A stretch of 64,000 nucleotides of DNA from a bacterium (GTDB lineage Bacteria; Armatimonadota; Abditibacteriia; Abditibacteriales; Abditibacteriaceae), in NCBI GenBank assembly GCA_004172935.1, contig SDZD01000012.1, forward strand, positions 62,001 to 126,000, written 5' to 3'. Position numbers and translations under genes: made by a program. This document shows positions 4,961 through 21,070 of the stretch, in pieces; position 1 is the first letter of the stretch, and every line of letters begins with the position of its first letter. Below the pieces are notes generated by a model. The model saw nothing but the letters and a program-made list of their open reading frames with translations. It ran no database searches and was not told the DNA's origin.

Positions 4961-5625
4961 AACATAAGCTTGCCGAGAGAAGCACTAGGGCAGCAGTTGG
5001 CAAGCAGTTGTAATATACCCCAATAAATGTCATTTCAAACATCTATTTCAAACGGGACGCTTCAATTTTCGTAAAACCGAGATTTGCCATATCGGTGAGT
5101 AAGGAACAACTATCTAGAAGGGGTATTGCCCCTTGGCACATATTGTTTAAAGTCGCGCGTTCAGGCTGTTCGTGCCCCATGTTACCGCACGATTCGCCGT
5201 GTGGGGAGATTGTATACCAACTGCGGCGGGAGCCTTTGAAACCCTGAGGCATGGTCAGTAGGCCTTGATTCGGCAGGATGTGCGTGTTAACACCCCAACC
5301 GATTAATACCCTTCTCTGATTCCAGCTTTGTTCGTTTGCGTTGCTTCAGTCAGGGCGCAAACCGCGCCAGACACCTGAGTCGCCAGTGACGGCCTCGGTC
5401 GCCACGTACTTTTACAGGGCGAAACTTTCGCGGGAGCGCCGGTGCCGCCGAAACACCGTTCGTCGGGATGTTCTTCTTTCTCCGGCTCGGTGAGCCGGGG
5501 AAGGAAGGCCCGCTTATTATCAACTCCTACTCTTTCACTACTGGCAGTACAGTCTCCCATTGCGAATAGGTCTCAAATACGCTTTCCAAGCGACCTAAAT
5601 TATTTATGCTCAAGACTCGTTATAA

Positions 5626-7044
5626 CTAGCCAAGAAATTCGCGGAGTTGGGATTTGCAACTGCCACACCCAGTTCCGGCTTTGGTCGAGGCCATCACGAG
5701 CGAGATTTCGTTCGCGCCTTCTTTGATACAGGCGCGGATTTTTCCGGCGCTGACGCCATTGCAGTTACACACGGTTGCATCGTCGGGGAGGGCTTTAGTG
5801 GTGTTGCCAGCGCCTTTACCGATGTCGAAGAAGAGGGACGCGCGTTCTTCGGGAAGCGGCATCTGACGGTCGAAGAACTGGGCGAGGGTCGCCGTTTTGC
5901 GCACGTCGCCGAGCAAGATGGCTCCGGCAAGGCGACCATCGCGAATTACCAGTTTTTTGTAGCGGCCCCGCTGGGCTTCCTGATAGCACACGATTTCGTC
6001 GCCTTCGCGCTCACGCGTGCGACCCATTGAGGCGAGTTCGACGCCCATAACCTTGAGCTTGACGGCCAGTTTGGAGCCGCTGTAAGCGGCAGTTCGGCCT
6101 GTTAACACATCGGCTAAAACGCGCGCCTGTTCCCAGATGGGAGCCACCAAGCCGTAAACCTCACCGCGATGCTGGGCGCATTCGCCAACGGCGTAGATGT
6201 TTTCTTCGACCTGCATTTGGTCATCGACAACGATGGCCTTTTCGATGGCCAGACCCGCTTCGCGCGCGAGTTCGATGTTGGCGGCGATGCCACAGGCGAC
6301 GACAACCATGTCGCAAGGTAACTCGGTGCCATCCGAGAAGGCGAGTCCCGTCGCAGATTCTTCGCCAAGAATAGCTTTGGTGTCTTTATCGAGGTGGACA
6401 GTGATGCCCATCTTTTCGACGGTGTCCTTAAGGAATTTGCCTGAAACCTGATCGAGTTGGGCACTCATCAGACAGTTGGAGCGGTGGACGAGATGGACAG
6501 CGGCGCCATGCTCCATCAGGCCGCGTGCGGCTTCGAGGCCAAGGAGACCTCCGCCAACGACGATAGCGCGTTGCGCTTTTTGGGCGTAACCCGCGATGCC
6601 CGCGCAGTCGCGCAGGGTTCGCATCACGAACACGCCGCTTTTGCGCTCGCCCCACGGGGCCGACAAACCTTCCATCGGGGGAATGAAGGCCCGACTTCCG
6701 GTAGCGAAAACGAGGGTGTCGTAATGCAGTGTTGTGCCCCGGTCGCCTTGGACCAGGCGATTCATGCGGTCTACAGCAATGACTCTTTCGCCCGCGTGCA
6801 ATGTAAGGTGATTGGCCTCGTACCACTCCAGGGGATGGATAACGATGGACTCAGGCATTTTGGAGCCGTTGAGAACATCGGACAGCAGAATGCGGTTGTA
6901 GCTTCCGCCGGGTTCATCGCCGAAGATGGAGATGTCGTAATGTTTGGTGGCGCCGCGCGCCACAAGCTCGGCGGCGAGGCGTCCACCCGCCATACCGTTG
7001 CCAATGACAACGAGTTTCTTCTTTTGCGTAGATTCAGGAATCAC
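5626..7044 (-). CDS. NirB/NasB-like NAD(P)H-dependent FAD oxidoreductase with C-terminal BFD-like [2Fe-2S] domain
   Basis: MIPESTQKKKLVVIGNGMAGGRLAAEL...CNCNGVSAGKIRACIKEG...TKAGTGCGSCKSQLREFLG. GTG start at 7044 with GGAGG six bases upstream; the ORF-track start at 7317 lies inside the upstream reductase gene. Confidence 0.88.
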   Translation of the reverse strand: MIPESTQKKKLVVIGNGMAGGRLAAELVARGATKHYDISIFGDEPGGSYNRILLSDVLNGSKMPESIVIHPLEWYEANHLTLHAGERVIAVDRMNRLVQGDRGTTLHYDTLVFATGSRAFIPPMEGLSAPWGERKSGVFVMRTLRDCAGIAGYAQKAQRAIVVGGGLLGLEAARGLMEHGAAVHLVHRSNCLMSAQLDQVSGKFLKDTVEKMGITVHLDKDTKAILGEESATGLAFSDGTELPCDMVVVACGIAANIELAREAGLAIEKAIVVDDQMQVEENIYAVGECAQHRGEVYGLVAPIWEQARVLADVLTGRTAAYSGSKLAVKLKVMGVELASMGRTREREGDEIVCYQEAQRGRYKKLVIRDGRLAGAILLGDVRKTATLAQFFDRQMPLPEERASLFFDIGKGAGNTTKALPDDATVCNCNGVSAGKIRACIKEGANEISLVMASTKAGTGCGSCKSQLREFLG

Positions 7045-9121
7045 GTTCAACCTCCGTAGCTTTCTCGATTTTGGCGGCGCAAACCTTGAACTCAGGCATT
7101 TTGGAAGTCGGGTCGAGAGCGGGAATAGTGAGCAAGTTGGCGCTATGGTGGCCGCCCCAGTGGAACGGCATAAACAGGGTGTCAGCACGAATGCCGTCGC
7201 TGATTTTGGCGCACCCCGTTGCACTGCCTCGGCGCGAAGTGACACGCACCATGTCGCCTTCGGAAATGCCCATTTCGAGCGCGAGGTCGGGATGGAGTTC
7301 GACGAATGGAGGACCACTCATGGCGTTGAGTTCGGGGATGCGGCGTGTCTGGGTGCCGCTCTGGTATTGGGACATAACGCGCCCCGTGGTGAAGAAGAAT
7401 GGGTATTCGGTGTCAGGCTCTTCGGGCAAGCCAAAGAACTGCACATCATGGAAACGGGCGCGGCCATCGGGGTGAGCAAAGCGGTCGTGGAAGAGGCGCG
7501 GGGTATCGTCGTATCCGGCGCGACAAGGCCAGAAGACACCTTTGTTCTGGGTGATGCGCTCGTAGGTGATGCCAGAGTAATCGGCGAGAGCGCCCTTGGT
7601 AACGCGGCGTAGTTCGTCGAATATGACGCGCGGCTCGGAGGGAATGCGCTCGCCCTGTCCCCATCTTTTTGCGAGAGCGTTCAAAAACTGGGCATCGCTC
7701 CACACACCTTCGGGGGGTGTTTTGGCTTGATTACGGAGCAGAACACGGCCTTCGAGGTTGGTCATGGTGCCCTGCTCTTCGGCCCACTGCGTCGCGGGCA
7801 ACACGACATCGGCGAGTTCGGCGGTTTCGGAAAGGAAAAGGTCGGAGACGACAAGGAGTTCGAGGGCGGCGAGTTTGCGGCGTATTTTTCCGGCGCTTGG
7901 CGACGAGACGGCGACATTAGAACCCATTACGAAGAGGGCGCGCAACCCGTCTGCTTCGCCCATCGAGTCGAGGAGTTCGTAGGCCGATTTTCCGGCGCGT
8001 GGTAGCTCGTCAGGCGAAATCCCCCAATGGGCGGCGACTTCGCGGCGATGAGTTTCGTTTTCGATTTTGCGGTAGCCGGGGAGTTGGTCGGCTTTTTGGC
8101 CGTGTTCGCGTCCTCCCTGACCGTTGCCCTGACCAGTGAGGCAGCCATAGCCGTTATAGAACTTTCCGGCCTTGCCCAGACCTAGCGCCAAATTGATGAA
8201 GCCCAGAACGGTTTCGGTGCCATTGGCGTGTTGCTCGGCGCCGCGCGCGGTAAGAAACATGGAGTTGGCGCGAGCGAGCAAACGGGTCACGTCGCGCAAG
8301 TTGGCTTCATCGACGCCCGTGATGCGCTCGACGCGCGCGGGCCAGTAGGAAGCGACGGCGCGGCGGGCGCACTCGAAATCGGTGGTGCGCGTCGCAATGA
8401 ACGCTTCATCGAGCAAACCTTCCTCGATAGCGATGTGAAGTAAGCCGTTGGCTAAGACGAGATCGGTGCCGGGAGTGATTTGCAGATGGTAGTCGGCGTT
8501 TTGCGCGGTGGGGGTGGCGCGGGGGTCGACGACGATGAGTTTGCCACCGTTTTCGCGCAGTTTCTCGAACCACTGCATGATGGGGGGCATGGTTTCGGCG
8601 ATATTGGAGCCGATGAGTAGCACGGCATCGGCCTGGGCGATGTCTTGCATGGGGAAGGGCAAGCCCCGGTCGATGCCGAAGGCTTTATTGCCCGCCGCCG
8701 CAGCGCTCGCCATGCAGAAGCGCCCGTTGTAGTCGATGTTGGCGGTTTTGAGAACGACGCGGGCGAATTTGCCGAGCAAATAGGCTTTTTCGTTGGTGAG
8801 GCCACCACCGCCAAAGACACCTACGGCGTCGCGGCCCCATTTATCCTGAATTTGCTCGACTTTTCCGACGATGAAATCGAGCGCCTCGTCCCAACTGACG
8901 CTTTGGAGCGGGGCGTCCTTTTCGCGGCGAAGCAAGGGGGAAGTGAGTCGTTGCGGACTTTCGAGAAGGGCCACCGAAGTCCAGCCTTTGCGACACATTC
9001 CGCCCCGGTTGGTGGGAAAGTCGCGCGCTTCGACAACCCAATTCCCCTCGTGTTGGGTCAGGTTCATGCCGCATTGCATGGCGCAATAAGGGCAGTGGGT
9101 CGCGGTTTTAGGCTGGCTCAT
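7034..9121 (-). CDS. nasA: assimilatory nitrate reductase, molybdopterin catalytic subunit
   Basis: HCPYCAMQCGMNL...NRGGMCRKGW Fe-S motif; TNEKAYLLGKFARVVLKTANIDYNGRFCMASAAAAGNKAFG; molybdopterin-binding C-terminus. Confidence 0.93.
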   Translation of the reverse strand: MSQPKTATHCPYCAMQCGMNLTQHEGNWVVEARDFPTNRGGMCRKGWTSVALLESPQRLTSPLLRREKDAPLQSVSWDEALDFIVGKVEQIQDKWGRDAVGVFGGGGLTNEKAYLLGKFARVVLKTANIDYNGRFCMASAAAAGNKAFGIDRGLPFPMQDIAQADAVLLIGSNIAETMPPIMQWFEKLRENGGKLIVVDPRATPTAQNADYHLQITPGTDLVLANGLLHIAIEEGLLDEAFIATRTTDFECARRAVASYWPARVERITGVDEANLRDVTRLLARANSMFLTARGAEQHANGTETVLGFINLALGLGKAGKFYNGYGCLTGQGNGQGGREHGQKADQLPGYRKIENETHRREVAAHWGISPDELPRAGKSAYELLDSMGEADGLRALFVMGSNVAVSSPSAGKIRRKLAALELLVVSDLFLSETAELADVVLPATQWAEEQGTMTNLEGRVLLRNQAKTPPEGVWSDAQFLNALAKRWGQGERIPSEPRVIFDELRRVTKGALADYSGITYERITQNKGVFWPCRAGYDDTPRLFHDRFAHPDGRARFHDVQFFGLPEEPDTEYPFFFTTGRVMSQYQSGTQTRRIPELNAMSGPPFVELHPDLALEMGISEGDMVRVTSRRGSATGCAKISDGIRADTLFMPFHWGGHHSANLLTIPALDPTSKMPEFKVCAAKIEKATEVERDS

Positions 9122-9138
9122 GATGGTTTGAAGGCGCT

Positions 9139-10695
9139 TTAGAAGCGGGTCGTGTATTCGATGAAGCCGAAAGTGGCGTTTTTGTTCTGGGTGAAGGTGT
9201 TGGCGATGGCGCCTTTGCCCAGAGCACGAGCGACGTATAGGCCGACGCTGGAACGGGGGTTGAGCGTGTAGTCGAAGCTGATGTCGAAGACATTGGCAAG
9301 ACCCTTATGTCCACCGCTGGGGCGTCCGGCCATGCCGAAACCGTTGTCCTGAAAAGCGCCGCCGCCGAGATAATACAAGTCGTTGGCGTTGGCGAGTTGC
9401 AGAACGTGGGCTTCGCTACGAATGTTGAGTTTGGGAGTGGGACGCAGGATGAACTGAGCGAACAGGTCTTTCGAGTTCATCTGGTTGTAGAACGGAAAGC
9501 GGGAGTACAAACGCGGAGTGGGTAGCGGGGTGAAAAAGGTGCCGTGCTTGCCATCGGTGGCGTCGCCATCGCCCGAAGCGTAGTAGTAACCCGCTCGTAG
9601 CCAGGGGCGCCATTTGACGCCTTTGGGCTGATAGCCACCTTCGAGGGCGAAGGCGGCGCCGCGATGATCGAGCGTGCCCCAGCTTCCGGTTTGCAGTGCG
9701 CCCCAGCCTAGCACGTCGAATTCGCCCACAGTGCGCACATAGTCGGCGCCAAGGGTGTAAACGCGGATGTTGTCGTTATCGGCTTGACGCGCGGCGAGAG
9801 GGCGATTGTCGGTTTTCACCGACTTGCTGGCGTTGCGTCCGTCCTCATAGGCGAGGGCGAACACGCGGGCATCGGCGGTTTTGTCCGACTTGGTGTAAGC
9901 ACCGTAGAGGAAGTTGACGGCGTCGATGTTGTCGTTGGCGTTGAGCTGAAATACGCCCTCGGTGGGACGGGCACCGACGAACGTGAGGTTGCCATTGGCA
10001 ACGGGAGCCGAAATCTGCGCTCCGTCGAAGGCGCGGCCAACGTGAGTAAAGCTGAAAGTCCCGATCAGGCGCTGAGAGAGGCGTTGGACCTTAAGGAAGT
10101 TGAGCGTCGGGTTGGGGTTGACGGTTTCGGTGCCGTCGTTGAACTCGAATCGCCCGACGCGAATCGCGCTGCCTTTGCCAAGATTATTCTTGAAGCGCAC
10201 AAAGGCTTGCTTGATGTTAAGAGTGCCATCCTGATTACCATTGGCGAGGAAGTAGTTGCCGCCCTGCCCTAACGGAACTGCCGTTGTCGGGTTGGGCCGA
10301 AATACCGCGCTATCGGGAAGATTGGTGAACAGTTGATGTTGCAGATCGAGTTGAACATCAAGGTTGGGCGTGGTCTTAACGCCGGAGATGCGCAATTGAT
10401 GTCCGGTGAAACCGTAGCGGCTCGTGCCATTGGCAGCATCGAAGTAGTCGTAGCCTTCGCCGCGAGAACGCAAGTATCCAGAGAAGGAGAAACCGCCAAG
10501 AGTGGCGAATGGTTTGAGTGCGGGTTGCGGGCGGCCCGGTGCAGCGGGAGTGCCGCCCGTCGCCGTTGCAGATGGTGTCGTTGTGGTTGTTCCGGGTGTT
10601 GCGGGTGGTGCAGGAGCAGTGGTTTGCGCGCAAATTGGTGCAGTGATGCCTGCGACGAGGCACACCATGCCCGCCAAAGAGTGTGTAGAGTTCAT
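9139..10695 (-). CDS. outer-membrane porin-like beta-barrel (alginate-export-like), candidate nitrate porin
   Basis: MNSTHSLAGMVCLVAGITAPICAQ signal peptide; FSFSGYLRSRGEGYDYF...RVGRFEFNDGTET; C-terminal TFGFIEYTTRF ending in an aromatic residue. Confidence 0.75.
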   Translation of the reverse strand: MNSTHSLAGMVCLVAGITAPICAQTTAPAPPATPGTTTTTPSATATGGTPAAPGRPQPALKPFATLGGFSFSGYLRSRGEGYDYFDAANGTSRYGFTGHQLRISGVKTTPNLDVQLDLQHQLFTNLPDSAVFRPNPTTAVPLGQGGNYFLANGNQDGTLNIKQAFVRFKNNLGKGSAIRVGRFEFNDGTETVNPNPTLNFLKVQRLSQRLIGTFSFTHVGRAFDGAQISAPVANGNLTFVGARPTEGVFQLNANDNIDAVNFLYGAYTKSDKTADARVFALAYEDGRNASKSVKTDNRPLAARQADNDNIRVYTLGADYVRTVGEFDVLGWGALQTGSWGTLDHRGAAFALEGGYQPKGVKWRPWLRAGYYYASGDGDATDGKHGTFFTPLPTPRLYSRFPFYNQMNSKDLFAQFILRPTPKLNIRSEAHVLQLANANDLYYLGGGAFQDNGFGMAGRPSGGHKGLANVFDISFDYTLNPRSSVGLYVARALGKGAIANTFTQNKNATFGFIEYTTRF

Positions 10696-10735
10696 TTTTG
10701 AGAGTTCCTGGGTTACGCTAAGGGAAAAGGGGGGC

Positions 10736-12649
10736 TTACACAGATACGGCAGAAAGGGGCAATATGGGAGCAGAGGCAACGGTGGGCGAGGCGATTTCGA
10801 CGCCCGCCTCTTGCAGTTCAGCGACGACTTCGGCGTACAGGTCGGTTAAGAGCAGTGACTGAGCGAGCTGTTCGGGCGAGGAATCGCCTGTGTTGTAACC
10901 GACCTGGGCCAATTGCTCGACGAACCATTGGCCATAGGAGAGTTGAGGCGCGTTGAGAGCGCCACCTTCGGAGAACGCGACTTTGGTGGTGTAGTCGCGC
11001 GTGCCCGCTTCGCCGCCGAGATTGTAATGGCCTTTCAAGCGTTCGAGGATGATCTCATAGGCGACACCGACGTATTCGGGTTTGGCGAGTTTTTGCGCGG
11101 CGCGTTCGAGATTTTTGGGGTCATCGAGCCACAGGCAGGCTTCGAGCAAGGCTTTCATTAGCGCCTTGAGCTTGTCGCGCTGTTCGCCAGCAAAGGTGGG
11201 GTTACAAACAAGGGCTTTTTCGGGATGATTGGCCCAGATGTCTTGCGAGGTGAGAAAAGTCCAACCTGCGCCGCGATTGGCAGCGAGAGCGTTCCAGGGT
11301 TCGCCCGCCGAAAATCCGTCGATTTGCCCCGACTGGAGGTTGAGAACCATCTGTGGTGGCGGGATAGTGATGACTTTATAGTCTTCGGGGGCGATGTCGG
11401 CGGCATCGAGCATGGTACGCAACCACAGGTCGTGGGTGCCGCCGGGGAATGTGGCCGCAAAGGTGAGAGGTTCACCCTTTTGCTCGCGCAGTAGACCAAC
11501 GGCATTTTTGAAGGCCGTTAAGTCGCCGAACGGGATGGGGAATTTGTCATTAGCAAGGGTGATGCCCTGCCCGTTAGCCGACAGCGTCATGGCAATGGGA
11601 AGTTGGGCGCCTTTAGGTTCGGTGACCCCAGCAGCCAAAGCGAAAGGCAAGCTCCACAGGCAGTGAGCGGCATCGAGTTCGCCTGTAACGAGCTTATCGC
11701 GCACGCTCATCCAACTCGAATCTTTGGCGACTTCGAGTTTGAAGCCATGCTTGTGATCGAGTTCGAGTTCTTTGGCGATAGCAAGGGGCGCACAATCGGT
11801 GAGCGGCATGAAGCCAACGCGCACGGTTTTCGCATCGCGCGGGACAGCTTTATGGCCGAGGCTACCGACTGTCAACAGGTCTATTAAGCGTGATTTGATT
11901 TCGCCATAGGCAGTCAACGTTGAAATGAGACGCTTATCGCGGGGGCGAGGGATGGGTACTTCGATGATTTCGCCGATGGTTGCGGCGGGGCCATTGGTGA
12001 AGACCACTATGCGGTCGCACAGGTAGATGGCCTCGTCGATGTCGTGCGTGACCATGAAGATGGTTTGCTTGCGCCCGTTTTGCGCCGACTCGTTCCAGAT
12101 GGCAAGCAACTCGTCATGAAGGGCGCCTTTGGTGAGTGCGTCGAGCGCGCCGAAGGGTTCGTCCAGCAACAATACCTCCGGCTTAGTGGCGAAAGCGCGG
12201 GCGATGGCGGCGCGCTGCTTCATGCCTCCCGAAAGCTGACCGGGCAATTTATCGCGGTGCTTGCCCAACCCCACCATGTCGATGAATTTGTTGGAGAGTT
12301 GGCGCTTTTCGGCTCCGGTCATGTTCTTTTCGTACACCGAATCGACAGCCTGAAAGACGTTTTCGGAAACCGACAGCCAGGGCAAAAGCGCGTAGTTCTG
12401 GAACACCATCGCGCGGTCGCTGCCGGGGCCTTTGATTTCGCGGCCTTCGACGGTGACTTTACCGCTGGAAGGCGGATAAAGCCCCGCGATGATGTTGAGC
12501 AAGGTGGATTTGCCGCAACCAGAGTGACCTATAAAGGCGACGAACTCGCCCTGCGAAACCGACAGGTTGATGTCGCGTAGCGCTGTGTAGGTGCCTTTGC
12601 CAGTCTGAAAAGATTTTTGGACGTTTTGGATTTGAACGAACGGAGTCAT
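10736..12649 (-). CDS. nrtC: nitrate ABC transporter ATPase fused to NrtA-like solute-binding domain (NrtC type)
   Basis: Walker A GHSGCGKST, signature LSGGMKQRAAIARA, Walker B EVLLLDEP; C-terminal half VRVGFMPLTDCAPLAIAKELELDHKHG resembles the NrtA encoded at 13684-14997. Confidence 0.93.
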   Translation of the reverse strand: MTPFVQIQNVQKSFQTGKGTYTALRDINLSVSQGEFVAFIGHSGCGKSTLLNIIAGLYPPSSGKVTVEGREIKGPGSDRAMVFQNYALLPWLSVSENVFQAVDSVYEKNMTGAEKRQLSNKFIDMVGLGKHRDKLPGQLSGGMKQRAAIARAFATKPEVLLLDEPFGALDALTKGALHDELLAIWNESAQNGRKQTIFMVTHDIDEAIYLCDRIVVFTNGPAATIGEIIEVPIPRPRDKRLISTLTAYGEIKSRLIDLLTVGSLGHKAVPRDAKTVRVGFMPLTDCAPLAIAKELELDHKHGFKLEVAKDSSWMSVRDKLVTGELDAAHCLWSLPFALAAGVTEPKGAQLPIAMTLSANGQGITLANDKFPIPFGDLTAFKNAVGLLREQKGEPLTFAATFPGGTHDLWLRTMLDAADIAPEDYKVITIPPPQMVLNLQSGQIDGFSAGEPWNALAANRGAGWTFLTSQDIWANHPEKALVCNPTFAGEQRDKLKALMKALLEACLWLDDPKNLERAAQKLAKPEYVGVAYEIILERLKGHYNLGGEAGTRDYTTKVAFSEGGALNAPQLSYGQWFVEQLAQVGYNTGDSSPEQLAQSLLLTDLYAEVVAELQEAGVEIASPTVASAPILPLSAVSV

Positions 12650-12730
12650 GAGTTTTCCCTTCGCCCGCGCTAACGGACGGTGCGCACTCGCTAAAGTGCG
12701 GCGGGTCGTGGACTAACAGCAGGTCGCGAA

Positions 12731-13609
12731 CTATTTGCTTTCGTAGGAGAATTTGTTTTGGAGGAAGTCAAAGATACGGTCGATTACAAGACCGACTCCA
12801 CCAATAACAATAATGGTGGCAACCATTTCATCGAGGCGCCCATTGTTGTAGGCGTCGTAGGCGCTGAAACCGATTCCCGAACTGCCCGACAGCATTTCGG
12901 CTGCGACGATAACCAACCACGCGATGCCGATGCTGAGACGCAAGCCCGTCAGAATATGCGGCAGCGAATAAGGCAGCAGCACTTTAGTCAGGTAACGGGT
13001 GGTCGAGAATTGGAAAACGCGCGAGACGGTTTTATAGTCTTCTGGCAGGTTGGAAACACCAAACGCGGTGTTCATGAGCGTGGGCCACAGCGAGCAAACC
13101 GCGATGGTGGCGATGATGGCCATTGGCGTTGTGTTATCGCCCATAGAGCGAAAGACGACCTGCGAGAGCGGAAACCAGGCGAGAGGCGACACCGGACGCA
13201 TCAAAGAGGCGATGGGATCGACGATGCGCTTGATGGTGGGCACCGAGCCAACAAGGATTCCCAGTGGAATCGCGATGATGGAGGCGACGCCAAAGCCCAT
13301 AAAGACGCGGCCCAGCGAGGCGATGACAAGGTTGCCAACTCCCATCGTGCCATCATCGTTTTTGTAGAACGGGTGCGCCAGCATCGCCCACAGTGCCTTG
13401 AAGGTGATGAGAGGCGTTGGCAAGTCTTTGGCGAGCGTAGAGCAGAGCAGCATCCAGAAGGCCAGCATCAGCAGAATGGAGAGTGCAAAAAATGCACTCG
13501 ACTTCAGCAAAGACTCGATGTTGCGGGCGGCCTTATCGGACAAAGCACGCTTAGAGCGGGCGGACGGGGCGACGGGCGAGGCCGAAAGAGCGGAAGCGTC
13601 TTGAACCAT
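12731..13609 (-). CDS. nrtB: nitrate ABC transporter permease
   Basis: Inner-membrane permease; PVSPLAWFPLSQVVF...GIAWLVIVAAEML, between nrtC and nrtA. Confidence 0.92.
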   Translation of the reverse strand: MVQDASALSASPVAPSARSKRALSDKAARNIESLLKSSAFFALSILLMLAFWMLLCSTLAKDLPTPLITFKALWAMLAHPFYKNDDGTMGVGNLVIASLGRVFMGFGVASIIAIPLGILVGSVPTIKRIVDPIASLMRPVSPLAWFPLSQVVFRSMGDNTTPMAIIATIAVCSLWPTLMNTAFGVSNLPEDYKTVSRVFQFSTTRYLTKVLLPYSLPHILTGLRLSIGIAWLVIVAAEMLSGSSGIGFSAYDAYNNGRLDEMVATIIVIGGVGLVIDRIFDFLQNKFSYESK

Positions 13610-13683
13610 GAGAAAAACCTCGATTGAAGGTGTGGTTGGTGCGCGCCAACAATGGGCGCGCTCAGGGGGGAGGCAAGTAGCTC

Positions 13684-14997
13684 TTAGGCCAATTGGTTTT
13701 TGAGGAAGTTGGTGCGCGCGGTGTAGGTTTTGAGCGCGTCAAGTGGCTTGGCCGGGTCGAAGGCCACTTTATCGACAGCCACTGTAATGGGCTTCATGTC
13801 GTCGTCGGGAACGGCGATTTTCATTTCGCCCGCGACTTCCTTATAGAGGTCTTGCAACAGGATGCTCTCGACCAACTTTTCGTGATCGGCGGGTAGCGCG
13901 TCCAATTTGCCGAAACGCACGTACTGAGTCAGGAACCAGATGCCATAGGATTTGCGAGGGAAGTTGGTGAGGCCGCCGTTGTGGAACAGCATGTAGTCCT
14001 TGGCCGAGGTGAAATCCTTGGTGCCATTGCCGCCGCCGAGGTCGTACTTGCCAGCGAGACGGTCGCGAATGACGTCGGGTTCGGCCCCGGTGTAGGCTTT
14101 GGTGCCGATGATTTCGGCGACCTTGTCGCGGTTCTTCATGTCGTCGATGAACTGCGAGGCTTCGAGGATTGCCGTCATCATTTTCTTGAGGTCGTCGCGG
14201 CGCTCGTCGGCAAATTTGCCGTTAACGACGAGAGCTTTTTCGGGGTGGTCTTTCCATAAATCCTGGGTGGCGATGAAGGTAAAACCAACTTTGTCGGCCA
14301 CTGCTTTGGCGCCCCAGGGTTCGCCGACATTGTAGCCATCCATGTTACCAGCGGTCATGTTCGCGACCATTTGCGGGGGCGGGATGACTTTGACTTGAAC
14401 GGATTTGGGGTCGATGCCAGCCCCTGCCAAAGTGAGGTGCATCCACATATCGTGGGTGCCACCGGGGAAGGTCATGGCGAAAGTGGGCTGTTTGCCCGAA
14501 GCGCGCAGTTTGTCGGTGGCGGATTTGAGTCCGGCGAAATCGGCGTATTTGACACCCGCAAAGTTCTTGCTGGAAAGCGTCGTCGCCTGACCGTTGTTAT
14601 TGAGGATCATGGCGATTTTGAGCGGGTCGCCCTGCGCTTTGGAGACGCCAGCGGCAACCGAGAACGGCATTCCGAACAAACAGTGGGCAGCGGACAGTTC
14701 GCCAGAGGAGAGCTTGTCGCGCACTGCCAGCCAGTTGGCTTGCTTCACAACCTGAACATCGACGCCGTGCTTTTTAAAGAGGCCCATTTCCTGGGCAACA
14801 ACAACCGAAGCGCAATCGGTGAGCGGAATAAAGCCAATTTGGATGGGGCCGCCTTTGCTGGTGGAAGCCCCTGTCGATGATTGAGCAGTGTTAGAAGAAG
14901 GTGAACCGCAGCCGGACAAAACGGCGGCAGCAGCAGACATCGAAAGCCCTGCGGCCAGGAGTTCTCGGAGCAATTCGCGGCGAGTAAGTTTGGACAT
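13684..14997 (-). CDS. nrtA: nitrate-binding protein, Tat-like lipoprotein
   Basis: TRRELLRELLAAGLSMSAAAAVLSGCG (twin-Arg plus lipobox); IQIGFIPLTDCASVVVAQEMGLFKKHGVDV. Confidence 0.92.
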   Translation of the reverse strand: MSKLTRRELLRELLAAGLSMSAAAAVLSGCGSPSSNTAQSSTGASTSKGGPIQIGFIPLTDCASVVVAQEMGLFKKHGVDVQVVKQANWLAVRDKLSSGELSAAHCLFGMPFSVAAGVSKAQGDPLKIAMILNNNGQATTLSSKNFAGVKYADFAGLKSATDKLRASGKQPTFAMTFPGGTHDMWMHLTLAGAGIDPKSVQVKVIPPPQMVANMTAGNMDGYNVGEPWGAKAVADKVGFTFIATQDLWKDHPEKALVVNGKFADERRDDLKKMMTAILEASQFIDDMKNRDKVAEIIGTKAYTGAEPDVIRDRLAGKYDLGGGNGTKDFTSAKDYMLFHNGGLTNFPRKSYGIWFLTQYVRFGKLDALPADHEKLVESILLQDLYKEVAGEMKIAVPDDDMKPITVAVDKVAFDPAKPLDALKTYTARTNFLKNQLA

Positions 14998-15201
14998 GGA
15001 AAAGAAAAGCCTTGGAGAAATGGGCGCGGAACGACTTTGCGCTTTGAATAAAAAATGGCGTTTTCCTTTCGCGATGGTCTAAGGAATAAAATGTTTTTTG
15101 AGTGAAGTTCGAGTTAAGGTTATGTTTCAGAAAAGCCTTAAATCGAGCAGTCGCGAGGTGAAATTTTCATGAGGTTTCAATCAGGTTCACAACTTGCTTA
15201 A

Positions 15202-16794
15202 TTAGTACACATCGCGTCCGTAGCGTCCGGCACGACTCATCTGAGCGATGTAGTCGCGGGCGCCATCGTCGCCCAGATTTCCATGCGTGGCGACGATGGT
15301 ATGAAGGGCGTTATCGACATCTTTAGCCATGCGGGAGGCATCACCGCAAACGGTGAAGTGCCCGCCTTCATCCAACCACTTCCAGATTTCGGCGCCGTTT
15401 TGGAGCATCTTGTCCTGCACGTAAATTTTCTCGGCCTGATCGCGCGAGAAGGCGAGGTCGAGGCGAGATAAGTGACCGTTACTCAGGTAGTTCTCGATCT
15501 CGCTTTGATACAGATAATCGGTTTCGCGGTGCGGCGCTCCGAAGAACAGCCAGTTTTTACCACTATGTCCTAAAGCAACGCGCTCTTCAAGAAAGGCGCG
15601 GAAAGGCGCGATACCCGTTCCGGGGCCAACCATCATCAGCGGGGTTTGCGGGTCGAGGGGCGGGCGAAAACCGTGGCTAGGCTGCACGAAGACGCCGACT
15701 TTTTGCCCGGTGAGACACCTATCACCTAAGAAGGTGGAGGCAACACCTTTACGGGCACGTTCGCTACCGTTGCGGGCGTAGCGCACCATTCCGACGGTGA
15801 GATGGACTTCATCGGGGTGGGCTTTGAGGCTGCTGGAAATGGAGTAAAGGCGGGGGCGTAGTGGCGCGAGTTTGCTGATAAGAAAACCGACATGGGAGGC
15901 GCTACGTGGGCGGGCCGAGGGAAAATCTTGCAAGACATCGAGAATGTCGCGGGTGTGGAGATAATTTCCGGCGTCGGTTTGGGCGAGTTCGAGCAGCTTT
16001 TCGCGATCATCGTCGCGCGCAGCCAGGCCGGAGAGCGCTTCGAGAAATTCTTCTGAGACTTGATTGATAACGTAGGCCGCTTGCAGAGCGACACGAGCGG
16101 GAATGACACGGCCTTCGGGCGAGTGAGTCGGCTCGTCTCCTGTGGCATCCAGTTCGGTCAGAATATCTTCGACCAACTCGCTGCAATTTTCGGGATAGAC
16201 CCCCAGAGCATCGCCGACTTCGTAGCTTAGCCCGCTTCCCTTGAGGCCAAATGAAACGAATCGCACGTCTTTTTGCGAGTCTTTGCGCGTGAGCGGAAGG
16301 ATTTGAAGAATGGGCGAAGGAAAGGGGTTGTCGCGATTGAAGGAAGGCGTGCCATCGCCGCTCGAAGGCTTAGGCGCCGCAGGAGTGGCAACTTCGGCAT
16401 CAGCGGGGCGCTTGGCGACCAATTCTTTGAGCTTGTTTTTGGTTTCCTTGCCACCGGGAGAGCATTTGGTGAGGTCTTTATCGGCACCTGAGGCGATGGC
16501 TTCGGCGTAGGTCTGGCATAGATAGCCGCAACTGCCGCAGTCGAGTTGCGCCATCGCCGCCATTAAAACGCGCGGGAACGGTTTCTCCTGAGCGAGAACA
16601 AGACGCTCATCGAGAGCGAGAGCGGGGTCGTGCCAGGGGAACTCTTCGTCTTCGGCGCTGGCTTCGGTTTGCGCGGGCGCGACCGAAGCCTTGCCGCTAT
16701 CGTTGAGGTGCAGCAATCCAGCGAGAAAACCGTTCAGGTAGGCGCGTTGAGCCGCCGAAAAAGGTGCGCTTTCGGGAAGCAAGGGTACGGACAT
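15202..16794 (-). CDS. CysJ-like FAD/NADPH reductase with N-terminal 4Fe-4S domain (PF04060-like), candidate nitrite reductase electron donor
   Basis: N-term LDCGSCGYLCQTYAEAIASGADKDLTKCSPGGKETK; FAD/NADPH part RLYSISSSLKAHPDEVHLTVGMVRY...MMVGPGTGIAPFRAFLEER...YIAQMSRAGRYGRDVY; no flavodoxin domain seen. Confidence 0.85.
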   Translation of the reverse strand: MSVPLLPESAPFSAAQRAYLNGFLAGLLHLNDSGKASVAPAQTEASAEDEEFPWHDPALALDERLVLAQEKPFPRVLMAAMAQLDCGSCGYLCQTYAEAIASGADKDLTKCSPGGKETKNKLKELVAKRPADAEVATPAAPKPSSGDGTPSFNRDNPFPSPILQILPLTRKDSQKDVRFVSFGLKGSGLSYEVGDALGVYPENCSELVEDILTELDATGDEPTHSPEGRVIPARVALQAAYVINQVSEEFLEALSGLAARDDDREKLLELAQTDAGNYLHTRDILDVLQDFPSARPRSASHVGFLISKLAPLRPRLYSISSSLKAHPDEVHLTVGMVRYARNGSERARKGVASTFLGDRCLTGQKVGVFVQPSHGFRPPLDPQTPLMMVGPGTGIAPFRAFLEERVALGHSGKNWLFFGAPHRETDYLYQSEIENYLSNGHLSRLDLAFSRDQAEKIYVQDKMLQNGAEIWKWLDEGGHFTVCGDASRMAKDVDNALHTIVATHGNLGDDGARDYIAQMSRAGRYGRDVY

Positions 16795-16835
16795 GATGAT
16801 TGGATAAATTGTCGAATGAGAAGTCGAGGCGCGGT

Positions 16836-18647
16836 TTACGAAGCGCAGAAGGCGTTCAACTGTTCGGTGCTGTGGCGCTTCGTCCAGTCGTGGAAGCTTT
16901 CGAGGACATCGGTGCGCGTCGCGAGGTAGGATTTGAGTAACTGTCCGGTGACGCTTGAAAGGTCTTCCGCAGCAATGGAACGAACCACTTCACGCCCGAT
17001 GTTTTGCTGGTCGCCATATCCCCCTCCGACAAAGAGGTGAAAGCCATCGACCATATCGTCGCCCTGCTCGACCTTGGTGCCCAAAAACCCGATGTCGCCG
17101 ATGTAGTGCTGGGCGCACGAGTTAGGGCAACCCGTCAAATGGATATTGATGTTTTGGTCGATAGGCACTGATGCTTCGAGTTCGTCGGCAAGGCGAAGCG
17201 CGTTCTTTTTGGTTTCGGCATTGGCATATTTGCAGCCCGCCGAGCCAGTGCAGGCAATGAGGCCGCTGCGCACACCCGAAGCGCGGTATTCCAATCCCAA
17301 CCGGAGGATTTCGGCTTCGACGAGGACTTTTTTATCGTCGGGGATGTCGCAGATGAGCAGGTTTTGCCAGACGGTGAGGCGTATGTCGCCCGAACCGAAC
17401 TCATCGGCGATGTAGGCGAGGCCGCGCATCTGAGTGCTGCTTATGCGCCCCACGGGGAGAACAACGCCAAGGTAATTCAGCCCAGCTTGTTTTTGCGAAT
17501 GCCAACCGATGTGGGCATCGCGACCAATGGGCGGGCGCATCTCGCATTGCGAAAGCGGCAAAGACAGCGCTTCCTGTCCCCATTCTTTGAGAGTTTCGGC
17601 AACGAATTTTTCGTGGCCCCAATCATCGAGGACATATTTGAGGCGGGCTTTTTTGCGGTCGGTGCGATTGCCGTGTTTGATGAAGAGGCGAACAACCGCC
17701 ACTGCGAACGACACGCACTGATCGGGCCGAAGCAACAGTCCCTCGTCGATAGCGAAGTCTTTGTGTCCGGTAATGCCGCCAAAAGCGACTCGGAAGTAAA
17801 CACCCGCAGGAACAGCTTTGCCTTCGCCCACTAATACGGCACTAAAGCCGATGTCGTTGGTGTCTTCGAGGCTGGAAATGGCACCGCCACCATCGAAAGC
17901 GATATTGAACTTGCGAGGCAAACCATACATCTCGCGATGGTTGAGGATGGTGTGGTGCATCTGCCGCGATAGGTCGCGGGTGTCGTACAACTCGTTGGGG
18001 TCAATGCCCGCTGTGGCGCTGCCCGTCACGTTGCGAATGTTGTCGGCGCCCGAACCGCGCGCCACGATGCCCGATTCTTGCAGGGATTCGAGGAAATCGG
18101 CGGCATATTCCGCTTTGATTTCGCGGATTTGCAGATTGGCGCGCGTAGTCGTGTCGGTGTAGCCACCGCCGAACTTTTGGGCGATACGCGCGGTGGCGCG
18201 CATCTGGTCGCTGGAAATGAGGCCGCCGTAAAAGCGAAGGCGGCACATGAACGAATCTTGCGCAGGAGCCACATAGAAAAGGCCATGATACTTCCACATA
18301 AACGCATCAGTGCCTTTGGGGAACTGAGCGTTTTGTGCGTGCGAAACTATCTGGTCCCAGCGGTCGAAGGGGTGTTGTTCGCGCTTGGCGACCTCCTCCG
18401 GCACCAGCTTTTTACCGGCTTTTTCCTGGGCGGCCTGGGCTTCGAGTTGCAGTTTGTCGGGGCCTTCGTATTTAGCCACTGCCCCGCTTTGGGCCAGAAG
18501 GGTTTCGGCGAAAGTGGGCAGATTCAGTAGCGCCCGCGCGGTGTCGGCACCAGCCGTGAAACCGGAAAGGTACTCCTTTTGTTCAACCGAGAACTCTTCG
18601 CCCGAAACCGAGTTACCATTGAGAAGCTGTGCGTCGCTCATTGTCAA
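16836..18647 (-). CDS. nirA: assimilatory nitrite reductase (siroheme/4Fe-4S)
   Basis: NVTGSATAGIDPNELYDT; C-terminal TGCPNSCAQHYIGDIGFLGTKV and CxxxxxC/CxxxC siroheme/Fe-S motifs. Confidence 0.92.
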   Translation of the reverse strand: MTMSDAQLLNGNSVSGEEFSVEQKEYLSGFTAGADTARALLNLPTFAETLLAQSGAVAKYEGPDKLQLEAQAAQEKAGKKLVPEEVAKREQHPFDRWDQIVSHAQNAQFPKGTDAFMWKYHGLFYVAPAQDSFMCRLRFYGGLISSDQMRATARIAQKFGGGYTDTTTRANLQIREIKAEYAADFLESLQESGIVARGSGADNIRNVTGSATAGIDPNELYDTRDLSRQMHHTILNHREMYGLPRKFNIAFDGGGAISSLEDTNDIGFSAVLVGEGKAVPAGVYFRVAFGGITGHKDFAIDEGLLLRPDQCVSFAVAVVRLFIKHGNRTDRKKARLKYVLDDWGHEKFVAETLKEWGQEALSLPLSQCEMRPPIGRDAHIGWHSQKQAGLNYLGVVLPVGRISSTQMRGLAYIADEFGSGDIRLTVWQNLLICDIPDDKKVLVEAEILRLGLEYRASGVRSGLIACTGSAGCKYANAETKKNALRLADELEASVPIDQNINIHLTGCPNSCAQHYIGDIGFLGTKVEQGDDMVDGFHLFVGGGYGDQQNIGREVVRSIAAEDLSSVTGQLLKSYLATRTDVLESFHDWTKRHSTEQLNAFCAS

Positions 18648-18719
18648 ACAAAATGACGCGGCGATTAGTAACAGTCCCAGGGAAGAAGTTTTACTTGAAT
18701 GAACTTTCGATTAACGGCG

Positions 18720-18740
18720 TGTTTCGTAAACAACGAAACA
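18720..18740. promoter_or_regulatory. inverted repeat TGTTTCGT-aaaca-ACGAAACA between sigma factor and nirA
   Basis: Perfect 8-bp arms about 75-95 bp upstream of the nirA start. Confidence 0.45.
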
Positions 18741-18747
18741 GTTCAAA

Positions 18748-19833
18748 TCAGGCGGGCATTTGAAGGCAACCACAGTCGATGATGGCGGTGCCAGCGTGAC
18801 TGGAAGCGATGTAGATTTCGATTTGGGAACCGGGAAGAATGGGATCGACGATGGCGAAAGGAACGTGAATCGCGTCATTGGCGGCACAGGGAACGATGCG
18901 ATGTGGCAAGCCATTGACGATGGTGGAAACAACGACCATACCATCGGAGACATTGCCAACGCGCAAGTAACGTATGCCTAACACATGGCCGATGGGCACG
19001 GTGTAAACCAGCTTTTTGGAGAGTAGTTCTGGCGTCTTAATTCCCGTTACCGGAAAATCGAAGGTGCCTTGTAACAGGATGGGGCGACCTGCGCCCACGC
19101 CGACTAAGTCGGGCCTTTTTTCGTCTTTGACCATAGTGTTTATGAACTCCCAGAACTCTTCGCGCGGGTCGGAGAGTCGGGGCTTTTTAGAGGCGCGTCC
19201 GGTGCGCGTTGTCCCCTCTGCTTCCTCAAAGAACTCGCGCATTTTGAGAATGGCGGCTTCGAGACGATTACGAACTGTGCTACGGGGCAAGCCTAATTCT
19301 CTGGCCGCCGCCATTTCGGTGCGTCCTAAAACACAACAGCGCCAAACGACCTCGCGCTGAGGTAGAGAAAGGGTTTCGAGCGCGGCATTCAAGGCCAAAT
19401 TGCGCTCGACTTCCGCCGATTCCTGCGCCCCTACTCCCTCAAACAACCATTCCGAAGGCTCCGCATTTTCGTCATTGGAGTCGATGTTCGTCAATTGCGA
19501 AAACGGGATGGCGTTGCTCCTTCTTTGTTGACGCAGCCAACTCCGAAGGTCTAAGTCGAGCATTTTCTCGATGTAATAGGGGAAATAAACACCCGCATCA
19601 GCACGGAAGCTGTGCAAGCGACTCAGGAACAGGAAGGTAATTTGCGCTTCGATGTCAGCAAATTCGAGTGTAGAGAAGCTTTCGCGGACGGCGCCCCACA
19701 GGTAATGCATCCGCGACCGTAACAAAGGGCGGAACTGTTCCAGTAATGCTTCAGTCGCGAGTTCATCGCCAGATTGAGCCGCACAAATGCGGCTTTCTAA
19801 ATCAATGATGGGGAGGAATGGCGCGACTGTCAC
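18748..19833 (-). CDS. sigma-70 family (ECF-like) factor with ~130-aa beta-rich C-terminal extension
   Basis: Sigma2-like segment LEFADIEAQITFLFLSRLHSF...; Sigma4-like LSLPQREVVWRCCVLGRTEMAAARELGLPRSTVRNRLEAAILKMREFF; then GTFDFPVTGIKTPELLSKKLVYTVPIGHVLGIRYLRVGN... Confidence 0.82.
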   Translation of the reverse strand: MTVAPFLPIIDLESRICAAQSGDELATEALLEQFRPLLRSRMHYLWGAVRESFSTLEFADIEAQITFLFLSRLHSFRADAGVYFPYYIEKMLDLDLRSWLRQQRRSNAIPFSQLTNIDSNDENAEPSEWLFEGVGAQESAEVERNLALNAALETLSLPQREVVWRCCVLGRTEMAAARELGLPRSTVRNRLEAAILKMREFFEEAEGTTRTGRASKKPRLSDPREEFWEFINTMVKDEKRPDLVGVGAGRPILLQGTFDFPVTGIKTPELLSKKLVYTVPIGHVLGIRYLRVGNVSDGMVVVSTIVNGLPHRIVPCAANDAIHVPFAIVDPILPGSQIEIYIASSHAGTAIIDCGCLQMPA

Positions 19834-20059
19834 GGGCTACATATTATGCAGCCGCAATCACATTCGCGTCTCTCGACGGTTAATTTTGGGTTTCACGATT
19901 GGCATTGGCACTCTCTCAATACACCTTGAGGGCTGCTCTCGCGGTTTCTTTTTCAGCCAAATAGTTTTCTATCGAACACGCAGTAGTTGATTGCTTTGGC
20001 GACCACGATGTGGCGTAGGGCGTGCATGGGCTTCAGGCGAAAAAATTTAGATTAGTTCT

Positions 20060-20088
20060 GTTTAAAACCAGATTGGTTTGGGTATAAT
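20060..20088 (+). promoter_or_regulatory. putative sigma-70 promoter GTTTAA-N17-TATAAT
   Basis: -35 at 20060-20065 and -10 at 20083-20088 upstream of a pseudopilin; same architecture at 58151-58179. Confidence 0.65.
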
Positions 20089-20123
20089 CAGTGGGTAACA
20101 AGCTGGTTGTGTTGCAAATTCAG

Positions 20124-20147
20124 CTTTTTGTTAACGTAAACAAAAAG
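20124..20147. promoter_or_regulatory. LacI-family operator candidate CTTTTTGTTAACGTAAACAAAAAG
   Basis: 24-bp near-perfect palindrome (one mismatched pair). Confidence 0.65.
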
Positions 20148-20227
20148 CCTATTTAGCTCCTTTCTAAATCCCATAAAGAGAGAATTTTGAAAGGCTTCAA
20201 TATCGAGTGTTGAAGGCAATACGGCAC

Positions 20228-20245
20228 TTTGTTAACGTTAACAAA
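20228..20245. promoter_or_regulatory. LacI-family operator candidate TTTGTTAACGTTAACAAA
   Basis: 18-bp perfect palindrome 15 bp upstream of the pseudopilin ATG. Confidence 0.75.
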
Positions 20246-20260
20246 TCAATAAACTAAAGC

Positions 20261-21070
20261 ATGAGAAATTTTCTACTTCCTCAGGAGATCACTCCCATCA
20301 AAAATCGCTCGAATGGTTTCACACTCATCGAGCTTCTTGTTGTCATTGCCATCATTGCCATTCTGGCCGCCATTCTCTTTCCCGTCTTCGCGAGGGCACG
20401 CGAAAACGCCCGCCGCTCCTCTTGCCAGTCCAACCTGAAGCAGATTGGTCTTGGACTGCTCCAATACACGCAAGACTATGACGAAACGTTGACCCCCAAA
20501 TATACCGGGCTAAATGGTTATGGCTTGTCGAACGTCGCCGCAGGGCGTCTCAAATGGATGGATTTGGTGCAACCCTACGTCAAAAGCGAGCAGATTTTCA
20601 ATTGCCCAAGCGACACGTGGGGAAGGACAGTGCAGATTTATGATGGTGGTGGCAACCAGACCCGCACCACTGCTCCTTATGCATTGAACGGTCCTGCATC
20701 GGGGGCAAACTATGGCTCTTACGGAATGAATACCTACTACGCGGAAGCGGGAGCACCGAGTCCCCCCAGCGGCAACCCCGACGCGCTGGTCAAACTCGCT
20801 CAAATCGAAGCCCCCGCGACCACAGTTTGGGTCATGGACACCGATGATATAGACGGGTATTCCTGGGGAGCTGGCGAAGACGCAAACAGCTACAATGTAC
20901 CGGCACCCTCTGGAAACCCGCAGGTCACAGGTCGATTGATTTCACGCCACCTCGATACCATTAGCGTCATGTATACCGATGGGCATGTTAAGTCATTGAA
21001 AATGGATGCGCTCTTGAAGAGGACCAGCAATGGTGTGACCGTTTCCGCCTTCACCTGCGAGGATGACTAA
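20261..21070 (+). CDS. DUF1559 / H-X9-DG pseudopilin-like protein
   Basis: [59 protein letters not shown]. Confidence 0.95.

Follow-up and report, generated by a model that had tools for sequence, protein, structure and literature searches.

The 530-residue protein encoded directly downstream of nirA is, in our assessment, likely to be a dedicated NADPH-dependent electron donor of the nitrite reductase NirA, a reading that draws on its domains, its family and its linkage across genomes. Both genes lie on the minus strand of the window, the whole 64,000-nucleotide stretch of DNA analysed here, which comes from a draft genome of 92% completeness, and 41 bp separate the nirA stop from the start of the donor open reading frame. 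An earlier note on this DNA had described a CysJ-type FAD/NADPH gene immediately downstream of nirA, without a flavodoxin domain and with a PF04060-like 4Fe-4S motif, all of which was borne out by the searches reported below. The curated family of the protein, the unusual spacing of its cysteines and the N-terminal motif that it has in common with NirA are points that were missing from that note.

Domain architecture of the proposed donor

The donor and its proposed partner comprise the following features:

15202..16794, minus strand: Fe-S/FAD/NADP reductase of 530 residues, proposed NADPH donor to NirA (open reading frame, Pfam, NF004859 and linkage)
16714..16785, minus strand: donor N-terminal motif, residues 4-27 (PLLPESAPFSAAQRAYLNGFLAGL), common to NirA (alignment and HMM)
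16456..16548, minus strand: PF04060-like 4Fe-4S domain, residues 83-113, with C86, C89, C93 and C111
15730..16344, minus strand: CysJ-type FAD-binding domain PF00667, residues 151-355 (Pfam and match to 1ddg)
15313..15633, minus strand: NADP-binding domain PF00175, residues 388-494; the CysJ-like C-terminus after it ends in RYGRDVY
16836..18647, minus strand: nirA, siroheme/4Fe-4S nitrite reductase of NF007126
18549..18596, minus strand: NirA N-terminal motif (EFSVEQKEYLSGFTAG), related to the donor motif

Similar to CysJ (SiRFP), with which residues 148-530 align (1ddg and 6efv; E 4.5e-91 to 6e-91), including SRDQ.EK.YVQ and the C-terminus, the donor contains FAD- and NADP-binding domains (123.8 bits for PF00667 and 60.8 bits for PF00175 in Pfam) and is paired with a siroheme/4Fe-4S reductase. 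In contrast with CysJ, however, which has an FMN flavodoxin domain and CysI as its partner, the donor has a PF04060-like 4Fe-4S domain and lies beside NirA. No Pfam match to the flavodoxin domain PF00258 was found in the 530 residues.

The match to PF04060 exceeds the Pfam gathering cut-off by a small margin (24.4 bits against 23). It is judged not to be a chance match, since residues 1-135, searched alone, matched RnfB families (E down to 3e-11) and positions 10-143 of the NCBIfam model NF004859 (179 bits), and the four presumed cysteine ligands are conserved without exception in a set of 18 relatives that extends to approximately 42% identity. The CG.CG and C.PGG signature and the four cysteines are common to the donor, RnfB and the corrinoid iron-sulfur protein. 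The spacing in RnfB is C-x2-C-x4-C, whereas the donor has C-x2-C-x3-C-x17-C, and this arrangement, one residue shorter, is invariant in all 18 proteins; the Fe-S domain of the donor, unlike RnfB, is part of a soluble protein that also contains an FNR module. The Fe-S part matched the solved RnfB 7zc6 weakly (E 0.067). AlphaFold was confident for the FAD/NADP part only of the whole donor, with pLDDT below 50 at residues 30-149; the N-terminal part modelled alone (pLDDT 59) gave no confident Fe-S fold, and a fold search with it returned no match.

The protein belongs to NF004859 (PRK06214), scoring 630 bits against a cut-off of 432 over residues 3-530 (model positions 10-539), and the Fe-S/FAD/NADP architecture is already represented by this curated model. 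It falls outside the CysJ models TIGR01931 and NF008197, reaching 413 bits (cut-off 668) and 355 bits (cut-off 838), respectively. The database name of NF004859 is ‘sulfite reductase subunit alpha'. As ordinary CysJ proteins, those of E. coli and B. subtilis, also pass its cut-off, through their FAD/NADP part, the name is weak evidence on the substrate, and it is probably misleading, given that the genomic context described below points to nitrite.

Linkage to nirA and the nature of the probable partner

A nirA gene adjoins every one of the 18 Fe-S-type donor genes found. These are located in the window, in Gemmataceae (L002 and L004), in ten other planctomycetes (L137-L146), on Methylocystis and Methylobacterium plasmids (L100 and L101) and in relatives within the window's phylum (G004, G019 and G017). 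In that phylum 4 of the 151 genomes sampled contain NirA, with the donor adjacent in all 4; the G017 contig ends within the locus, and at its end nirA stands together with the Fe-S domain and the first part of the FAD domain. Among 392 planctomycete genomes NirA occurred in 13, with an adjacent Fe-S donor in 11 and an adjacent flavodoxin donor in 2 (G396 and G510); none of the 13 was without a donor and none had both types. The probability of this co-occurrence by chance is 1e-19 if genomes are treated as independent, a figure that ignores kinship and thus overstates the strength of the association. The three plasmid records that carry NirA at 44% identity or above all carry a Fe-S or flavodoxin donor as well. 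Collectively, the genomic evidence ties the NF004859-type donor to NirA.

The partner itself is a member of NF007126 (853 bits; cut-off 523), retains the cysteine ligands (GCPNSC) and has asparagine in the sequence LPRKFN. We take this site to be asparagine in nitrite reductases and lysine in sulfite reductases, as in the plant and E. coli enzymes. The sequence LPRKFN or IPRKFN was found in 57 of the 57 NirA sequences that cover the site, and lysine occupied the same position in 22 of 22 sulfite-type sequences. The listed start of nirA is a TTG at 18647; the ATG two codons on, at 18641, is more natural.

It could be argued that the donor really is the alpha subunit of a sulfite reductase, and that either its position beside nirA is incidental or NirA reduces sulfite. 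The NCBIfam name and the CysJ-like FAD/NADP module would accord with such a role, and NirA of M. tuberculosis is a sulfite reductase. The name, however, carries little weight for the reason given above, linkage and co-occurrence are with NirA, the cluster is of the nrt/nas type, and the neighbouring enzyme has the nitrite-type asparagine, while the two other siroheme proteins of the source genome, encoded elsewhere (C12 and C163), have the sulfite-type lysine. We therefore consider a sulfite reductase function very unlikely, and the linkage and co-occurrence likewise disfavour the alternative, raised in the earlier note, that the protein partners only with sulfite reductase.

A shared N-terminal motif and the exchange of Fe-S and flavodoxin modules

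Donors begin with APFSxxQRxWLNGFLAGL and NirA proteins with FSxEQKxYLxGFxAG. When all open reading frames of the loci were searched with an HMM built from NirA N-termini, the donor N-termini were matched with E down to 2e-8 and no CysI protein was matched; the few other frames at E below 1 were donor fragments or a further CysJ-like protein. The reciprocal HMM, built from donors, matched NirA at E 4e-5 to approximately 0.1 in most flavodoxin-type loci, the match being weaker in some Fe-S-type loci. The motif was not seen in any NasC reading frame of the loci searched, and it had no match among PDB sequences. It is probably an assembly tag that holds NirA and its donor together. The CysJ of E. 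coli oligomerises through its N-terminus.

In verrucomicrobial nirA clusters the donors carry PF00258 where the Fe-S type carries PF04060 (10 of 10 tested; A2) and keep the same first 30 residues as the Fe-S donors. More generally, the flavodoxin donors of Verrucomicrobia, Sulfitobacter and two planctomycetes have the same position at the side of nirA, the same N-terminal motif and a homologous FAD/NADP module, but differ from the Fe-S donors in the exchanged domain and fall in separate clades. In a tree of the FAD/NADP module, made with a quick method, the Fe-S type forms a single clade (SH-aLRT 99), which implies that it arose once or spread from one source, and the flavodoxin donors of NirA are spread over several other clades.

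In two relatives of the source organism, G019 from its own genus and G004 from its own family, a separate Fe-S gene lies between nirA and the FAD/NADP gene, and each of the two separate proteins has the N-terminal motif. More than any other observation, this split form suggests that the Fe-S domain is a working electron-transfer unit and no remnant. The G019 locus (L133) contains the nirA, Fe-S and FAD/NADP genes with no homologues of nasC, nrt or the porin in the 17 kb read, which may mean that this organism uses nitrite independently of nitrate.

Could the donor instead be an NADPH:ferredoxin reductase, in which the Fe-S domain relays electrons to a free ferredoxin that in turn feeds NirA? 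Reduced ferredoxin does serve as a donor to other NirA enzymes (PMC8092218), and the route to the plant sulfite reductase runs from NADPH through FNR and ferredoxin to the siroheme enzyme (PMC9687028). We consider this unlikely, however. The other type of donor found at this position has a built-in flavodoxin domain, the part of CysJ that passes electrons on directly. In addition, the split form retains the Fe-S protein as a dedicated member of the operon, and the common N-terminal motif suggests a complex.

Two further CysJ-like arrangements were observed. A second CysJ-like FAD/NADP protein of 384 residues, with neither a flavodoxin nor a Fe-S domain (G000:C202:143760-144875; L136:6725-7876, plus strand), falls into one clade with stand-alone verrucomicrobial proteins; no sulfur genes were among the scanned neighbours of this lone FAD/NADP protein or of C12 and C163. 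On Shinella and Ketogulonicigenium plasmids (L130:868-8113 and L131:949-8086) the place after the large subunit of glutamate synthase is taken by a flavodoxin-CysJ-type reductase instead of GltD, and the reductase carries the same N-terminal motif as the NirA donors. This is possibly a second case in which a CysJ module has been recruited to supply a different enzyme with electrons from NADPH.

The nitrate-assimilation cluster and the proposed electron route

The donor and nirA sit in a nrt/nas cluster whose genes are all on the minus strand:

13684..14997, minus strand: NrtA-like nitrate-binding protein (NMT1_2; Pfam)
12731..13609, minus strand: NrtB-like permease
10736..12649, minus strand: NrtC-like ATPase with a fused binding domain
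9139..10779, minus strand: outer-membrane porin of the alginate_exp family
7034..9121, minus strand: NasC-like assimilatory nitrate reductase
5626..7317, minus strand: NAD(P)H-FAD oxidoreductase (Pyr_redox_2) with a BFD [2Fe-2S] domain

The oxidoreductase at 5626-7317 is the probable donor to NasC. Its listed GTG start overlaps nasC and homology begins at about residue 96, placing the true start inside the open reading frame. The cluster is headed by a gene for a sigma-70-like protein that is much extended at its C-terminus (18748-19833, minus strand) and may regulate it, because a homologue (54%) also lies just before nasC in G004 (L132:14099-15259, minus strand). No Rfam RNA element was found within window positions 5000-20500.

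This setting raises the main rival reading, in which the donor would be a general NADPH donor of the cluster, feeding NasC as well as NirA. In most planctomycete clusters nasC directly adjoins nirA and the donor, and the region read contains no separate Pyr_redox/BFD donor; CysJ-like modules fused to nitrate reductases have been described (PMC4013037), and in Paracoccus the ferredoxin NasG is thought to serve both enzymes. Nevertheless, a separate FAD/BFD oxidoreductase, or a BFD domain on NasC, is present in the window, in Gemmataceae, in G004 and in two alphaproteobacterial loci, the neighbour of the donor is always nirA, and it is NirA, rather than any NasC of the loci searched, that has the donor motif. 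A shared role of this kind thus seems rather doubtful to us.

The siroheme/4Fe-4S NirA enzymes reported from Pseudomonas aeruginosa (PMC8092218) and Bradyrhizobium japonicum (PMC4724949), which are set beside the window NirA by description and may belong to another NirA family, have no NAD(P)H module of their own; ferredoxin is described or assumed as their donor, and neither report describes a Fe-S/CysJ donor beside nirA. The P. aeruginosa enzyme was active with ferredoxin and inactive with NADPH plus flavin (PMC8092218), while that of B. japonicum is taken to be ferredoxin-dependent, the flavoprotein Flp of its operon serving NasC and not NirA (PMC4724949). The premise of the earlier note, in so far as it concerns ferredoxin as the usual donor of NirA, holds for other NirA groups. 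Within the open-licence PMC literature, subscription journals being outside its scope, we found no paper on the nirA/donor pair.

In the route that we favour, electrons would pass from NADPH to FAD, then to the [4Fe-4S] cluster and on to NirA, the Fe-S domain doing the job that falls to the FMN flavodoxin domain in CysJ and in flavodoxin-type donors, and the common N-terminal motif would keep NirA and the donor in a complex. We infer the type of cluster, the direction and path of the electrons, complex formation and exclusivity for NirA from comparative evidence. The central proposal of the earlier note, that the Fe-S domain replaces flavodoxin in an NADPH donor to NirA, is nonetheless supported by the linkage in 18 of 18 cases and the co-occurrence in two phyla, by the flavodoxin versions in the same nirA-linked position and the split three-gene form, and by the nitrite-type residue of the adjacent enzyme together with the two sulfite-reductase-type proteins that the genome encodes away from the cluster. 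Against the proposed route, clusters of the RnfB/CFeSP type can have potentials too low for efficient reduction by NADPH, and in this light the one-residue-shorter cysteine spacing of the donor may bear on the potential of its own cluster; the lack of a confident AlphaFold model of the Fe-S fold also counts against it.

More tentatively, the data could reflect a third way, beside NirBD and the ferredoxin-dependent NirA, in which bacteria reduce nitrite for assimilation, here with NADPH. In it, a NirA holoenzyme would be held together by an N-terminal tag on all of its subunits and would have an exchangeable one-electron module, either a 4Fe-4S domain or a flavodoxin, fused or encoded by its own gene; this seems to us possible, although somewhat short of probable. 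If the proposed role of the donor is correct, the missing electron donor would be named for a NirA family found in several phyla, and a misleading database name would be corrected from sulfite to nitrite. It would also provide a natural experiment in which a Fe-S domain and a flavodoxin have been exchanged for each other while the FAD donor on one side and the siroheme acceptor on the other stay of the same kind, making the second-cofactor needs of a diflavin-type reductase directly testable.
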